Part shown: positions 991-7,022 of the stretch, piece by piece
How positions within the stretch are numbered: position 1 is the stretch's first letter
Layout of the letters: each line of letters begins with the position of its first letter
Assembly (NCBI GenBank): GCA_016188625.1
Contig: JACPHL010000215.1
Coordinates: 1 to 7,355, forward strand
From: Candidatus Rokuibacteriota bacterium
GTDB taxonomy: Bacteria > Methylomirabilota > Methylomirabilia > Rokubacteriales > JACPHL01
Length of the DNA stretch: 7,355 bases
Reading direction: 5' to 3'
The notes under the pieces: model-generated
Seen by the model: only the letters and a program-made list of their open reading frames with translations
The model's database searches: none
What the model was told of the DNA's origin: nothing
Position numbers and translations under genes: made by a program

Positions 991-2354
991 GTCGGGTCCC
1001 CGCGCTCGTCGTCGCCGGGATCGCCTCCGGGGTGGGGAAGACCACCCTCACCCTCGGCCTGGCCGCCGCGCTCCGGCGCCGGGGGCTCCGGGTCCGGGCG
1101 GCCAAGGTCGGTCCGGACTTCATCGACCCGGGCTTCCACGAGGCGGTCACCGGCGCGCCGAGCCGCACCCTGGATGGCTGGATGCTCTCCCCCGACGCCC
1201 TCAGGCGGAGCTTCGCCCGCACCGGGGCCGGGGCGGACCTGGTCCTGGTGGAGGGGATGATGGGGCTCTTCGACGGGCTCGACGGCCGGAGCGAGGTCGG
1301 GAGCACGGCCCAGGTCGCCAAGCTCCTCGGCGCGCCCGTGGTCCTGGTCCTCGACGCCTCGGCCCTGGTCCGGAGCGCCGGGGCGATCGTCCTCGGCGCG
1401 GAGCGCTACGACCCCGATCTGGAGATCGCGGGGGTGATCTGGAACGGCGCGGGCGGCGAGCGCCACGTCCGCTGGCTCGCCGAGAGCCTCGAGGGGCGCT
1501 GCCGGGCGGCCTCGCTCGGGTGGCTCCCGCGGCAGGGAGACCTCCACCTCCCGGAGCGCCATCTCGGCCTCGTCACCGCGCGGGAGCGGCGCTTCGACCC
1601 CGGGCTCCTGGCACGGCTCGGCGAGCTGGTGGAGGCGCATGTCGATCTCGAGCGCCTGCTCGCCCTGGCCCGGAGCGGCGTGGAGGGCGAGGTCGAGCCC
1701 GCCGCTCCCCCGGAGACCCGGGCGAGGATCGGCGTCGCGCTGGACGAGGCGTTCCAGTTCTACTACCCCGAGAATCTCGAGCTGCTCCGCGAGGCCGGGG
1801 CCGAGCTGCTCTTCTGGAGCCCGCTCAAGGATCCCGACCTCCCCGACGTGGACGGCCTCTACCTCGGCGGCGGCTACCCCGAGGTCCACGCCAAAGAGCT
1901 CGCCGCCAACGACTCGATGCGGGCCGCCATCAGGGCCTTCACCCTCGGCGGCGGGCCCCTCTACGCCGAATGCGGGGGGCTCATGTACCTGGCCGAGCGC
2001 CTCGAGGACCTCGAGGGGACCCTCCACCCGATGGTCGGGCTCCTCCCGCTCACGGTCAGGATGCTCCCCCGCCGCCTCACCCTCGGCTACCGCGAGGTGA
2101 TCCTCGAGGCCCCGAGCCTGCTCGGGGGGCCAGGCACACTCCTCCGCGGCCACGAGTTCCACCACTCCCACGCCGACAGCGATCTCGCGGGGATCGAGCG
2201 GGTCTACCGCGTCAGCGACCCGGGCGAGGGGAGGGTCTGGCCCGAAGGGTACCGGCTCGCCAGCGTCCTGGCGAGCTACGTCCACCTCCACTTCGGCTCG
2301 AACCCGGCCGCCGCCCGCGCGTTCGTGGCGGCCTGCGAGGCGAGGCGGCGATGA
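987..2354 (+). CDS. cobB/cbiA: Cobyrinate (or hydrogenobyrinate) a,c-diamide synthase
   Basis: This glutamine-dependent amidotransferase uses ATP to amidate the a and c side chains of the corrin ring in the cytoplasm. The 455 residues match the usual length. The N-terminal P-loop domain has GIASGVGKTT (residues 11-20, Lys18), KVGPDFIDPGFH (40-51) and EGMMGLFDG (89-97). The C-terminal class I glutaminase domain starts near residue 245. It carries YLGGGYPEVHA, the nucleophile Cys329 in AECGG (Cys330 in Salmonella CbiA, from memory), GHEFHHS, and His433/His435 in YVHLHF. Length and these motifs separate it from the larger cobyric acid synthase CobQ/CbiP. Whether it acts before (CobB) or after (CbiA) cobalt insertion cannot be told here; cobalt-handling genes upstream would decide. 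The GTG start lies inside the cobT stop (GTGA), with a weak purine-rich GAGAGGG about 6 bases ahead, so translation is probably coupled. The next gene begins at the ATGA of its stop. Confidence 0.95.
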   Translation: MSRVPALVVAGIASGVGKTTLTLGLAAALRRRGLRVRAAKVGPDFIDPGFHEAVTGAPSRTLDGWMLSPDALRRSFARTGAGADLVLVEGMMGLFDGLDGRSEVGSTAQVAKLLGAPVVLVLDASALVRSAGAIVLGAERYDPDLEIAGVIWNGAGGERHVRWLAESLEGRCRAASLGWLPRQGDLHLPERHLGLVTARERRFDPGLLARLGELVEAHVDLERLLALARSGVEGEVEPAAPPETRARIGVALDEAFQFYYPENLELLREAGAELLFWSPLKDPDLPDVDGLYLGGGYPEVHAKELAANDSMRAAIRAFTLGGGPLYAECGGLMYLAERLEDLEGTLHPMVGLLPLTVRMLPRRLTLGYREVILEAPSLLGGPGTLLRGHEFHHSHADSDLAGIERVYRVSDPGEGRVWPEGYRLASVLASYVHLHFGSNPAAARAFVAACEARRR

Positions 2355-3223
2355 AGGGGCTGCTCCTCGCCCTGGCCCTCCTCCTGGCCGCCGGGTCGGC
2401 CGAGGCCGGGACGGTCCGGGACATGCTCGGCCGCGAGGTCAGGGTCCCGGAGCGGCCGGGGCGCGTGGTCTCGCTGGCCCCGAGCCTCACCGAGACCGTC
2501 TACGCCCTCGGCGCCGAGGCCCAGCTCGTCGGGGTCACCACCAACTGCGACTACCCGCCCGAGGCGGCGAAGAAACCCAAGGTCGGGGGGATGGTCACCC
2601 CGAGCCTCGAGGCGATCCTCACGCTACGCCCGGATCTGGTCCTGGCGACGACCGAGGGGAACCGGGAGGAGCACGTCCTGGAGCTCGAGCGGCTCGGCCT
2701 TTCGGTCTACCTGGTCCGCCCGACGAGCTTCGCCACCGTGCTGGAGAGTGTCCTCCGGGTGGGCGAGCTGCTCGGGCGGGAGGCCGAGGCCCGGAAGCTC
2801 GTCGAGGAGATGCGGCGGGAGGTCGCGGCGGTCGCGCAGGCGACCCGGCCGCGCCCCCGCCCCCGGGTCCTCTACGTCCTCTGGGGCAACCCCCTCATCG
2901 TCCCCGGCCGCGACACGATCATGACCGATCTGATCCGCCTTGCCGGCGGCGTGAGCGTGACCGGGGAGGAGGCGCTCCCCTATCCCCGCTTCAGCCTCGA
3001 GGAGGTGGTGGCCCGGAACCCCGAGATCATCGTCCTGGCCCAGCACGGTTTGAACTCGGTGGACGAGCGGCTCCAGCGCTGGCGCCACCTCAAGCTCCTC
3101 CCCGCCGTCCGGGCGGGGCGGATCTACGGGATCGACGGCAACCTCCTCCACCGCCCCGGCCCCCGGATCGTCGAGGGGCTCCGCGCCCTGGCCCGGCTCC
3201 TCCACCCCGAGGTCCTGCCGTGA
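2351..3223 (+). CDS. btuF: Periplasmic cobalamin-binding protein of the BtuCDF importer
   Basis: This protein captures corrinoid in the periplasm and docks on BtuC. The 290-residue product starts at the ATG overlapping the cobB stop (ATGA), with GAGG 5 bases ahead. The same frame is open far upstream (from 1520), but that part is shadow coding across cobB. This start gives a clean signal peptide: MKG, a Leu/Ala-rich core, then a signal peptidase I site after AEA at residues 17-19. There is no lipobox cysteine, so it should be soluble. The class III binding fold is shown by RVVSLAPSLTETVYALGA, then CDYPPEA, whose Tyr68 aligns with a B12-contacting tyrosine in E. coli BtuF. Glu87 in SLEAIL and Glu217 in SLEEVVARNP align by eye with the two glutamates that salt-bridge to BtuC arginines (Glu72 and Glu202 in E. 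coli). Siderophore or haem binders share the fold; the cob genes and the B12 riboswitch make cobalamin the likely ligand. Confidence 0.9.
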   Translation: MKGLLLALALLLAAGSAEAGTVRDMLGREVRVPERPGRVVSLAPSLTETVYALGAEAQLVGVTTNCDYPPEAAKKPKVGGMVTPSLEAILTLRPDLVLATTEGNREEHVLELERLGLSVYLVRPTSFATVLESVLRVGELLGREAEARKLVEEMRREVAAVAQATRPRPRPRVLYVLWGNPLIVPGRDTIMTDLIRLAGGVSVTGEEALPYPRFSLEEVVARNPEIIVLAQHGLNSVDERLQRWRHLKLLPAVRAGRIYGIDGNLLHRPGPRIVEGLRALARLLHPEVLP

Positions 3224-4239
3224 TCACCCTTCGGCGGACCCTCGTGGTCACGGCCGCGCTCTTCGGGGGGTTCTGCCTCGTCGCGGCGGTCGCGCTCACC
3301 CTGGGCTCCGCGGCCATCGGTCTCGGCGAGATCGCCCGCGTCCTCCGTCGCCCCTGGCAGGAGTGGGGCGACCTCGCGGCCACCGTGATCCTGGGGCTCC
3401 GGCTTCCCAGGATCCTCCTCGCGGCCATGGCCGGGGCCGGGCTGGCAGTGGCAGGGGCCGCCTTCCAGGGGCTGACCCGGAACCCGCTGGCCGACCCCGC
3501 GATCCTCGGGGTCGCGAGCGGCGCGGCCTTCGGCGTCGTCGTCGCCCAGGTCCTGGGGCTCGAGGCCCTGCCGTTCGGATTCGTTCCCCTCGCGGCCTTC
3601 GCCTTCGGCGGGGCGCTCCTGGCGGCCACGGCCGTCTACCTCATCGCCTCCGTGGGGGGCCGTCTCCCCATCCAGACCCTGCTCTTGGCCGGGGTCATCA
3701 CCGGACTCTTCTTCACCTCCGCCATCACCCTGATCGTCTCGCTCCTCGACTTCGGCCGGCTCGGCGGGGTGATCCACTGGCTCCTCGGGAACCTCTCCTC
3801 GGTCGGCTACCGTGGGCTCGAGGTCATGGCGATCGCGCTCGCGATCGGGGTGGGGCTGGTCTACGCCCAGGCCCGGAGCCTGAACCTCCTCGCCCTCGGC
3901 GAGGAGTCGGCCCTCCAGCTCGGCGTGGAGGCCGAGCGGGTCAAGCGGATCATCTTTCTGGCCGCCTCCCTCCTCACCGGGGTCGTCGTGGCGTTCACCG
4001 GCCCCATCGGCTTCGTGGGGCTGATCGTCCCCCACGCGGTCCGGATGCTCTTCGGTCCCGACCACCGCCTCCTGATCCCGGCCGCGGTCCTCTCCGGCGC
4101 GGGGTTCCTGGTGCTGGCCGACGGCCTCGCCCGGACCCTGATCCGGCCGGCCGAGCTGCCGGTCGGGGTCATCACCGCCTTCTGCGGGGCGCCGTTCTTC
4201 ATCTACCTCCTGCGCACCCGCCTCCACCCACGGCTATGA
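3220..4239 (+). CDS. btuC: Cobalamin ABC transporter permease (FecCD family)
   Basis: This is the inner-membrane channel of the importer, working as a homodimer with two BtuD subunits. The 339 residues, close to the 326 of E. coli BtuC, are strongly hydrophobic and fit the family's ten membrane helices. Signature blocks are LRLPR (residues 60-64), GAAFQGLTRNPLADPAILG and TGPIGFVGLIVPHAVR, and a C-terminal AELPVGVITAFCGAPFF. Arg61, Arg64 and Arg305 line up with E. coli Arg56, Arg59 and Arg295, which contact the two BtuF glutamates; both halves of this docking code are therefore kept here. The start is GTG within the btuF stop (GTGA), with GAGGT 7 bases upstream. The stop overlaps the btuD start as ATGA. 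FecCD permeases also carry iron-siderophores, so the B12 assignment rests partly on context. Confidence 0.92.
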   Translation: MITLRRTLVVTAALFGGFCLVAAVALTLGSAAIGLGEIARVLRRPWQEWGDLAATVILGLRLPRILLAAMAGAGLAVAGAAFQGLTRNPLADPAILGVASGAAFGVVVAQVLGLEALPFGFVPLAAFAFGGALLAATAVYLIASVGGRLPIQTLLLAGVITGLFFTSAITLIVSLLDFGRLGGVIHWLLGNLSSVGYRGLEVMAIALAIGVGLVYAQARSLNLLALGEESALQLGVEAERVKRIIFLAASLLTGVVVAFTGPIGFVGLIVPHAVRMLFGPDHRLLIPAAVLSGAGFLVLADGLARTLIRPAELPVGVITAFCGAPFFIYLLRTRLHPRL

Positions 4240-5042
4240 CCGGCTCCGGGGCGCTGATCGAGGTCCGGGACCTCGCCTTCGGGTACAACGGCGCCTTCCG
4301 CCTTGAGGACGTCAGCTTCGCGCTGGCCCGCGGCGAGATCCTCGGCGTCATCGGCCCGAACAGCGCGGGGAAGACCACGCTGATCCGGCTCCTCTCCCGG
4401 GTGCTCACCCCGCAGCGGGGGGAGATCCTCATCGAGGGGGAGCCGATCGCGCGCCTTTCGAGGAGTGCCCTGGCCCGGCGGGTCGCGGTAGTCCCGCAGG
4501 AGCTCCAGCTCGCCTTTTCCTTCACGGTCCAGGAGCTGGTCCTGATGGGACGCCACCCCCACGCCCGCGGGCTCTTCTTCGAGGGGCCGCGCGATCTGAC
4601 CGTGGCGCGCCACGCCATGGCGGCCGCGGGTGTCCTCGAGCTGGCCGAGCAGTCCGTGGAGACCCTCTCGGGCGGGGAGCGGCAGCGGGCGGTGATCGCC
4701 CGGGCCCTGGCCCAGGAGCCCCACCTGCTGCTCCTCGACGAGCCGACGAGCCACCTCGACCTCCGCCACCAGGGGGAGATCGTGGGGCTGCTCCGCCGGC
4801 TCAACCGCCGGGAGGGGACCACGATCCTCCTGGTCTCCCACGACCTCAACCTGGCCGCCGAGCTGGCGGATCGCCTCCTCCTCCTCGCGCGGGGGCGCCT
4901 GGTCTCGATCGGTGACCCCGTGGAGGTCCTGGACGAGGCGAGCCTCGAGGCGGTCTACGGCTGCCGGGTGCATGTGGAGAAGAGCCCGTGGAGCGGTCGG
5001 CCGGTGGTCTCGGTCCGGTGGCCTGACGGCGAAGGGGGGTGA
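4236..5042 (+). CDS. btuD: Cobalamin ABC transporter ATP-binding protein
   Basis: This ATPase powers BtuC. The chosen ATG overlaps the btuC stop (ATGA) and gives 268 residues, the normal size for this family. The open frame running back to 3363 is shadow across btuC. All ABC motifs are intact: Walker A GPNSAGKTT (residues 40-48, Lys46), a Q-loop in VVPQELQ, signature LSGGERQR (144-151), Walker B LLLLDEPT with Glu169 as catalytic base, D-loop SHLDL, and the H-loop His202 in VSHD. Walker A has Ser-Ala where many relatives have Gly-Ser, a tolerated variant of GxxxxGK(S/T). I see no Shine-Dalgarno before the ATG (the preceding bases are a CCTCCACCCACGG run), so translation most likely depends on ribosomes finishing btuC. 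It is the last gene of the overlapping chain. No obvious terminator follows before the riboswitch, so some read-through into btuB is possible. Confidence 0.93.
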   Translation: MTGSGALIEVRDLAFGYNGAFRLEDVSFALARGEILGVIGPNSAGKTTLIRLLSRVLTPQRGEILIEGEPIARLSRSALARRVAVVPQELQLAFSFTVQELVLMGRHPHARGLFFEGPRDLTVARHAMAAAGVLELAEQSVETLSGGERQRAVIARALAQEPHLLLLDEPTSHLDLRHQGEIVGLLRRLNRREGTTILLVSHDLNLAAELADRLLLLARGRLVSIGDPVEVLDEASLEAVYGCRVHVEKSPWSGRPVVSVRWPDGEGG

Positions 5043-5069
5043 GAGCGGGCACGACGACGGAGGATGAGG

Positions 5070-5230
5070 CAGCCCCGGATCCAAGGGAAGCGGGTGAGAC
5101 CCAAGGTCGAATCCCGCACGGACCCGCCACTGTAAGTGGGGAGCGGCCCGCATCGATGCCACTGGAGGAGTTTCTCCGGGAAGGCGCGATGGCCGCGGCG
5201 ATCCACGAGTCAGGAGACCTGTCCGGGGCC
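5070..5230 (+). promoter_or_regulatory. Cobalamin riboswitch aptamer (RF00174 type) ahead of btuB
   Basis: This RNA element binds adenosylcobalamin or a related corrinoid and lowers expression of the gene behind it. The conserved B12 box is seen as GAGTCAGGAGACCT at 5207-5220. The core block GACCCGCCACTGTAAGTGGGG (5131-5151; consensus close to CCCGCAACTGTAA) and the GGGAAGCGGGTGAGA block (5085-5099) lie upstream in the right order. An 8-base-pair closing helix P1 can form between 5072-5079 (GCCCCGGA) and 5222-5229 (TCCGGGGC). Inner helices include GCGGG 5090-5094 with CCCGC 5113-5117, CCAC 5137-5140 with GTGG 5146-5149, and a small GGAG/CTCC hairpin at 5164-5177. The element begins about 30 bases after the btuD stop and points at btuB. 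Subclass and ligand (adenosyl- versus hydroxo/methylcobalamin) cannot be read by eye. Confidence 0.93.
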
Positions 5231-5236
5231 AGGAGG

Positions 5237-5261
5237 CACCCCTTTCGTGGAGAAGGAGGTG
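5237..5261 (+). promoter_or_regulatory. Ribosome-binding-site hairpin: riboswitch expression platform
   Basis: Immediately after helix P1, 5237-5245 (CACCCCTTT) can fold onto 5253-5261 (AAGGAGGTG). This gives four pairs, one C-A mismatch, then four more pairs including one G-T(U). The loop is 5246-5252. The downstream arm is the Shine-Dalgarno itself, so folding would hide it. There is no run of T after the stem, which argues for control of translation and against transcription termination. The loop bases GTGG (5247-5250) could pair with CCAC in the aptamer (5137-5140), a possible version of the kissing contact known in this riboswitch class; that part is speculative. Confidence 0.65.
5253..5260 (+). 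promoter_or_regulatory. Strong Shine-Dalgarno of btuB
   Basis: AAGGAGGT is a near-perfect match to the anti-Shine-Dalgarno end of 16S rRNA and lies 5 bases before the ATG at 5266. It fixes that start, which also gives a proper signal peptide. It is much stronger than the sites of the other genes here, as expected for a stand-alone leader whose access is gated by a hairpin. Confidence 0.85.
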
Positions 5262-5265
5262 TGGG

Positions 5266-6546
5266 ATGGTCGGGCGATACGGTCGGTGGGTGGTGGGGGT
5301 GGTTATGCTGGGGGCGCTGGCGGTCGAGCGGGATGCCTTCGCCCAGGAGGTCCAGCGCCTCGAGCCGGTGGTCGTCACGGCGACCCGGATCGAGGAGCCC
5401 CTCGAGCGGATCGGGGCCTCGGTCTCGGTCATCACGGAGGAGGAGATCGAGGCCCGGCAGTACCGGAGCGTGGCGGAGGCCCTCCGGAGCATCCCGGGCC
5501 TGGACGTGCAGCGGTCGGGGAGCCCCGGCCGGCTTACCACGGTCCGGATCCGCGGCGCCGGGGCCCAGCAGATCCAGGTCCTGATCGACGGGGTCCGGGT
5601 CAAGAGCACGACCAGCGGCGACTTCGACTTCGCCGACCTGACGACCGACGACATCGAGCGGATCGAGGTGGTCCGCGGCCCCCAGTCCACCCTCTACGGC
5701 GCCGACGCCATCGGCGGGGTCATCAACATCATCACCAAGAAGGGGCGGGGCCGCCCTTCGGGGTTCGCCCAGGTCGAGGCCGGGAACTTCGACACCTTCC
5801 GGGAGCGGGCAGGCGTCTCGGGGGCCGTGGGGCCCTGGGACTTCTCCCTCGGCGTCTCGCGCCTCGACTTCGGCGGGCAGTTCCGGAACGACGAGCACTC
5901 CAACACGACCGTGAACGGCCGGGTCGGGCTCGCCCTGCCGAACCGCGGCCAGCTCAGCCTGATCGGCCGCTTCACCGACGCCCACCGCGGGATCCCCTTC
6001 CGGACGGTCTTCCCCGACTTCGACCGGAACCGCGAGCAGGACGACACCCTCTTCCTCCTCTCGGGGCAGTGGCGCCAGCCCTGGACCGCCTGGTACGAGC
6101 ACCAGCTCACCCTGTCCACGTTTGGGTCTGAGCTCCTCTTCCGCGACCCGCCCGACCCCGGCGAGGCCGGGCCCGGGATCGAGTCCGAGATCGACATCCG
6201 GCGCCGGGAGGTGGACTGGCTCCACCACGTCCACCTCGGGAAGCTCGACACCGTGACCCTCGGCCGCGAGCTGCGGGAGGAGGAGGGGACGATCCGGGAG
6301 GCCTTCTCCAAGTCGATCACCACCCGCGCCGCCTGGCTCCAGAACGAGCTCCGGCTCTTCGACCGGTTCTTCCTCACGGCGGGGGTCCGTCACGACGACA
6401 ACTCCGCCTTCGGGGGCGAGACGACCTTCCGGGCGGCGGTCTCCTACCTCCTGAAAGAGACCGGGACCCGGCTCTCGAGCAGCGGTTCTGGCAGAACCGG
6501 ATCCGGCTCGGGGCCACGTACTTCCGCAACACCTTCAAGGATCTGA
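5266..6546 (+). CDS. BtuB N-terminal part: signal peptide, TonB box, plug and first barrel strands
   Basis: This is the intact reading frame of the 5' part of the broken btuB, 426 residues. A signal peptide ends at AFA (residues 24-26, cleavage before Gln27). The TonB box region EPVVVTATR follows at 33-41. The plug domain runs to about residue 165 and includes IPGLDVQRSG, VRIRGAGAQQIQVLIDGVRV and the highly typical RGPQSTLYGADAIGGVINI. Beta-barrel strands follow up to residue 403. The last 23 residues (Ser/Gly/Arg-rich, ending at the TGA 6544-6546) come from the wrong frame. A product made from this alone would lack the C-terminal strands and the terminal aromatic residue needed for outer-membrane insertion, so it is unlikely to work. 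Confidence 0.85.
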   Translation: MVGRYGRWVVGVVMLGALAVERDAFAQEVQRLEPVVVTATRIEEPLERIGASVSVITEEEIEARQYRSVAEALRSIPGLDVQRSGSPGRLTTVRIRGAGAQQIQVLIDGVRVKSTTSGDFDFADLTTDDIERIEVVRGPQSTLYGADAIGGVINIITKKGRGRPSGFAQVEAGNFDTFRERAGVSGAVGPWDFSLGVSRLDFGGQFRNDEHSNTTVNGRVGLALPNRGQLSLIGRFTDAHRGIPFRTVFPDFDRNREQDDTLFLLSGQWRQPWTAWYEHQLTLSTFGSELLFRDPPDPGEAGPGIESEIDIRRREVDWLHHVHLGKLDTVTLGRELREEEGTIREAFSKSITTRAAWLQNELRLFDRFFLTAGVRHDDNSAFGGETTFRAAVSYLLKETGTRLSSSGSGRTGSGSGPRTSATPSRI

Positions 6547-7022
6547 TCCAGGTCGTCCTGGTGGACCCCGAGACCTTCCTCTTCGCCCCGGTCAACGTGG
6601 CCCGGGCCCGGACCCAGGGGGTGGAGGTGGAGGGGAGCATCGAGCCGGTGGACCGCCTCCTCCTCCAGGTCGCCTACACCCACACCGACACCGAGGACCT
6701 CGCGACCGGCAAGCCGCTCCGGCGCTTCGCCCCGAACAAGTGGAGCCTGAGCGGTTCCTACGAGCCGCTCACCGGTCTGGTCCTCACCGCTCAGGCCTTC
6801 ATCGTCTCGAGCCAGTTCGAGTCCCAGGCCCTCGGCCGCAACCCCGGCTACACGCGCGTGGACGCGGGCCTGACCTACCGGCTCCCCTGGCGGCGCTGGC
6901 CGCTCCGGGACCTCGAGCTGAGCGCCCGGGTGGAGAATCTCTTCGACGAGGAGTACGAGGAGGCGAAGGGGTTCCCGGCCCTGGGAACCCACTATGTCTT
7001 CGGCCTCCGCGGGACCTTCTGA
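6474..7022 (+). CDS. BtuB C-terminal barrel fragment, out of frame with its 5' part
   Basis: These are the last ~180 codons of the receptor: EQRFWQNRIRLGATYFRN, FKDLIQVV, NVARARTQGVEVEG, then alternating barrel strands, RVENLFDEEYEEAKG and a final strand ending GLRGTF. The closing phenylalanine is the usual outer-membrane assembly signal. The GTG at 6561 is an internal valine codon (LVDPETF) and has no ribosome binding site, so I do not think this piece has its own start. The codon style equals that of the 5' part, so both come from one gene. The stop TGA shares its last base with the ATG of the next gene. Confidence 0.8.
   Translation, partial: LEQRFWQNRIRLGATYFRNTFKDLIQVVLVDPETFLFAPVNVARARTQGVEVEGSIEPVDRLLLQVAYTHTDTEDLATGKPLRRFAPNKWSLSGSYEPLTGLVLTAQAFIVSSQFESQALGRNPGYTRVDAGLTYRLPWRRWPLRDLELSARVENLFDEEYEEAKGFPALGTHYVFGLRGTF
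6483..6499 (+). repeat. Perfect 7-bp inverted repeat beside the btuB break
   Basis: CGGTTCT (6483-6489) and AGAACCG (6493-6499) are exact reverse complements with a 3-base loop. They begin a few bases after the point where the btuB frame changes. The sequence is also ordinary coding sequence (RFWQNR), so the repeat may be chance. A tight hairpin is a plausible aid to replication slippage or to an assembly collapse. Confidence 0.5.

Follow-up and report, generated by a model that had tools for sequence, protein, structure and literature searches.

A putative btuB gene missing a conserved mid-barrel segment in a fragmented MAG: most likely an assembly artefact

The btuB gene of a cobalamin locus in a fragmented, scaffolded MAG (2.6 Mb, 344 contigs, 84% complete) lacks a conserved internal segment of 110–130 bases and continues in a different reading frame beyond the loss. 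As a description of the deposited sequence, the deletion read there by the initial annotation is confirmed. The missing bases, in all likelihood, are absent from the deposited sequence and not from the organism, the loss being an artefact of assembly.

The window, the whole stretch of DNA analysed here (7,355 bases), is one complete short contig, C11. All of its genes lie on the + strand, and all except btuB are open throughout the portion present:

1–990, +, cobT-like phosphoribosyltransferase (PF02277, E 5.4e-131), truncated by the contig start
987–2354, +, intact 455-aa open frame, putatively cobyrinic acid a,c-diamide synthase-like (cobB/cbiA)
2351–3223, +, btuF-like periplasmic binding protein, intact (PF01497, E 1.5e-40)
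3220–4239, +, btuC-like permease, intact (PF01032 FecCD, E 1.4e-87)
4236–5042, +, btuD-like ATPase, intact (PF00005, E 4.8e-34)
5060–5240, +, cobalamin riboswitch, 5′ of btuB (RF00174, 89.2 bits)
5266–6474, +, first part of btuB, 403 codons in frame 1, encoding the plug and the first half of the barrel (PF07715, E 1e-32; PF00593 positions 21–228)
6474–6477, +, btuB joint, with TC (bases 6475–6476) in place of 36–46 codons of the relatives and a change from frame 1 to frame 3
6477–7022, +, second part of btuB, 181 codons and a stop in frame 3, encoding the C-terminal part of the barrel (PF00593 positions 281–436)
after btuB, +, metallo-hydrolase gene, start only

Judged by its domains and its B12 context, in which the RF00174 riboswitch and the btuF, btuC and btuD families adjoin it, btuB encodes a putative cobalamin receptor and importer. 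The riboswitch is likewise present at 12 of 13 loci of relatives. The ATP-binding loop of the btuD-like protein (window 4350–4375) reads GPNSAGKTT, as opposed to GPNGSGKTT in the closest relative, and still fits the general pattern.

The switch from frame 1 to frame 3 that had been placed near 6474–6477 is borne out both by the reading frames and by an HMM of codon usage, trained on this genome, which sets the change at 6472/6473, between a block in frame 1 (5264–6472) and a block in frame 3 (6473–7017). Past the break, frame 1 continues for about 24 non-homologous codons and ends at a stop at 6544–6546. The PF07715 plug match runs over profile positions 3–107 of 107, whereas the β-barrel is not covered in any single frame, with PF00593 profile positions 229–280 matched by neither piece. 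Against the BtuB family model TIGR01779, the two pieces align to positions 20–399 and 455–611 and score 195.8 and 33.5 bits, both below the curated cut-off of 599.7 bits. Together, the PF00593 and TIGR01779 profile coordinates indicate that the pieces are the two halves of one receptor with roughly 35–45 residues missing. Coding is clean in both halves, with no second lesion, and the joint contains no N's.

We aligned the btuB halves to 37 relatives, mostly from the same order. In 36 of them the halves are separated by 36–46 residues, always within a single open frame, with a mode of 38 and a distance of 44 in the closest relative, from genome G003; the segment is present in the 37th (L034) too, but the alignment of the first half is incomplete there, and the 65 residues obtained cannot be set beside the other distances. 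The net loss comes to 112 nt relative to the modal relative and, at the DNA level, to 130 nt relative to G003, where the flanking diagonals lie 130 bases apart. Both values are of the form 3n+1 and fall within the 105–135 bases, likewise 3n+1, that the initial annotation had estimated. The lost block, conserved and located mid-barrel, reads for instance GSWGEGFRAPTFNELFFP...GNPDLRPEKSESWDAGVEQ in the G003 gene (L002) and also aligns to the colicin I receptor Cir of E. coli. It is present in all 37 relatives and in no frame here, so the gene has lost a conserved segment, as had been proposed, and not merely its reading frame. A one-base slip is ruled out, as the segment is found in no frame and 110–130 bases are gone. 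Nor has the segment been relocated within the genome: a search of the recovered genome with a relative's segment did not find it elsewhere.

The same alignments bear on whether this could be a naturally shorter receptor subfamily, or a gene read by programmed frameshifting. We found no support for either. Two ways in which the proposed deletion might have failed, a shorter gene in close relatives or a subfamily devoid of the segment, are contradicted by the btuB genes of the closest genomes: the segment occurs throughout the subfamily, in one open frame in every one of the 37 relatives, which rules out the shorter subfamily, and programmed frameshifting cannot bring back residues for which there are no codons. 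Natural shortening and frameshifting are, taken together, scarcely conceivable. Among the relatives compared, btuB is intact in all and broken in this MAG alone.

Two details of the joint to which attention had been drawn do not stand out. The perfect 7-bp hairpin beside it is ordinary: the window has 22 such hairpins (2.99 per kb, compared with 2.86 per kb across 73 contigs of the same genome), and at that density it is ruled out as the cause of the deletion. The short bases said to be shared at the joint (TC/CTC) are not demonstrable without an intact allele. At the joint, CTC is followed directly by TCGAG, where in G003 the left edge of the segment reads CTCAAG and the right edge GTCGAG; by this comparison the joint looks blunt. 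None of the 95 genomes in the class is a close relative, and a near-identical intact allele was thus unavailable for comparison.

Similar breaks occur elsewhere in the MAG. We scanned 73 contigs (562 kb, window included) for points at which the coding frame changes abruptly with no stop close by in the upstream frame. Of the 26 flags, some clearly correspond to gene ends or intergenic stretches, or are false positives. Among the flags examined, we identified four frame-changing losses of conserved segments in addition to btuB, two direct repeats at frame breaks within genes, and three breaks with little or no loss:

L097:3861, MoxR-type ATPase, net loss of 101 nt relative to intact relatives, frame change
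L121:6177, antiporter subunit, net loss of 164 nt relative to intact relatives, frame change
L084:12995, NtrC-type regulator, net loss of 73 nt relative to intact relatives, frame change
L063:4832, acyl-CoA dehydrogenase, loss of 25 nt relative to the neighbouring paralogue, frame change
L061:5228–5320 and L076:3395–3492 (contigs C18 and C33), direct repeat at an in-gene frame break
L045:3837, lhr helicase, frame break at which profile coordinates show little loss or none
L062:14555, LL-diaminopimelate aminotransferase (lysine and cell-wall pathway), frame break at which profile coordinates show little loss or none
L077:3553, malate synthase, frame break at which profile coordinates show little loss or none

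The two direct repeats are 46–48 nt long and 93–98% identical, with 1–2 spacer bases, and their copies differ by 1–3 bases; they are probably unmerged contig overlaps. There are also six N gaps of non-round length (5–41 bases), which point to scaffolding with estimated gap sizes. Joints like that of btuB thus recur in unrelated genes of the assembly, as in local assembly errors of MAGs. The flag rate, which counts flags and not proven lesions, is 4.6 per 100 kb here, compared with 3.7 and 5.1 in two related MAGs, so that this MAG is no outlier and such breaks look like background in data of this kind. In G003, a gene at L176:6195 that is presumably an enolase, from the residues seen, is also split between frames, indicating that related MAGs have comparable breaks.

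What we observe is the loss in btuB, with its size and its frame, together with similar lesions at other sites; from these we infer that the lesions were made by the assembler and not by the cell. In the process we favour, two contig ends flanking an unassembled stretch would have been abutted, without N's and without any genuine overlap between them. Where the true gap was positive, such joining would produce internal losses of 25–164 bases, and where the ends did in fact overlap without being merged, it would produce duplications of 46–48 bases; a single process, the joining of ends with a wrong gap size, would then cover btuB and the other joints together. The recurrence of lesions, the unmerged-overlap repeats, the N gaps, the shortness of the contig that forms the window and the cleanness of both btuB halves all count towards such a misjoin. 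Weighing against it, the btuB joint has no N's and deletions without long repeats occur in real genomes too, and the flag rate resembles that of the two related MAGs, part of the flags being false positives.

Had the sampled strain truly undergone a recent deletion, it would have lost some 110–130 bases and been left with a truncated receptor unable to form a barrel, with btuFCD intact. The joint without N's is compatible with such an event, the undamaged downstream half fits a recent one, and the adjoining B12 synthesis genes mean that uptake may be dispensable; no other plug domain was found in the genome, which leaves no obvious substitute receptor. Similar lesions, however, affect several unrelated conserved genes, including that of LL-diaminopimelate aminotransferase, and single-event biology would not yield them alongside unmerged-overlap duplications. 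We therefore consider a true deletion unlikely, and quite unlikely the fuller scenario of a cobalamin-making, putatively Rokubacteria-like lineage in which the sole TonB-dependent receptor disappeared recently and the BtuFCD importer was retained. The dead receptor suggested by the initial annotation is accordingly unsupported as a property of the cell, and its own alternative, an artefact of assembly, is much the likelier reading given the recurring lesions and the duplications. The further suggestion of another receptor copy found no match either: in the whole genome, 84% complete, btuB carries the sole TonB-dependent receptor plug domain found. Two TonB C-terminal domains are present.

A mixed-strain sample, in which a minor strain carried the deletion and the assembler followed its path, is very improbable. 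At two joints elsewhere the duplicated ends differ by 1–3 bases, suggesting strain variation, but btuB gives no sign of two alleles and the missing segment lies on no other contig of the MAG.

With misassembly as the preferred reading, the case argues for caution: a pseudogene that has lost a conserved block in a fragmented high-GC MAG should be compared with the background of broken genes in its assembly before physiological claims are made. If true, the btuB deletion would amount to a recent gene loss of an ordinary kind, somewhat weightier because no other plug domain was found, although the genome is 84% complete.

Local assembly errors in MAGs, including duplicated sequence at scaffold joins, have been described by Chen et al. 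2020 (PMC7111523), who noted that incorrect genes enter public databases in this way. The present joints resemble those errors of metagenome assemblers in their duplicated sequence and incorrect gene sequences; there the errors were detected by mapped reads, whereas here the joints are read from the assembled sequence. As with BtuB of the TIGR01779 family (E. coli BtuB, PDB 1nqe), the gene described here encodes a plug domain and a barrel, with a cobalamin riboswitch 5′ of it and btuFCD adjoining, but it is divided between two frames, 36–46 conserved mid-barrel residues are missing and its halves fall under the family cut-off. The btuB gene on contig 194 of G003 is 70% identical in the first half and 57% in the second, and the order btuC–btuD–riboswitch–btuB–metallo-hydrolase is common to both loci; unlike the gene in the window, it is a single open frame, with the 44 residues between the halves in place.
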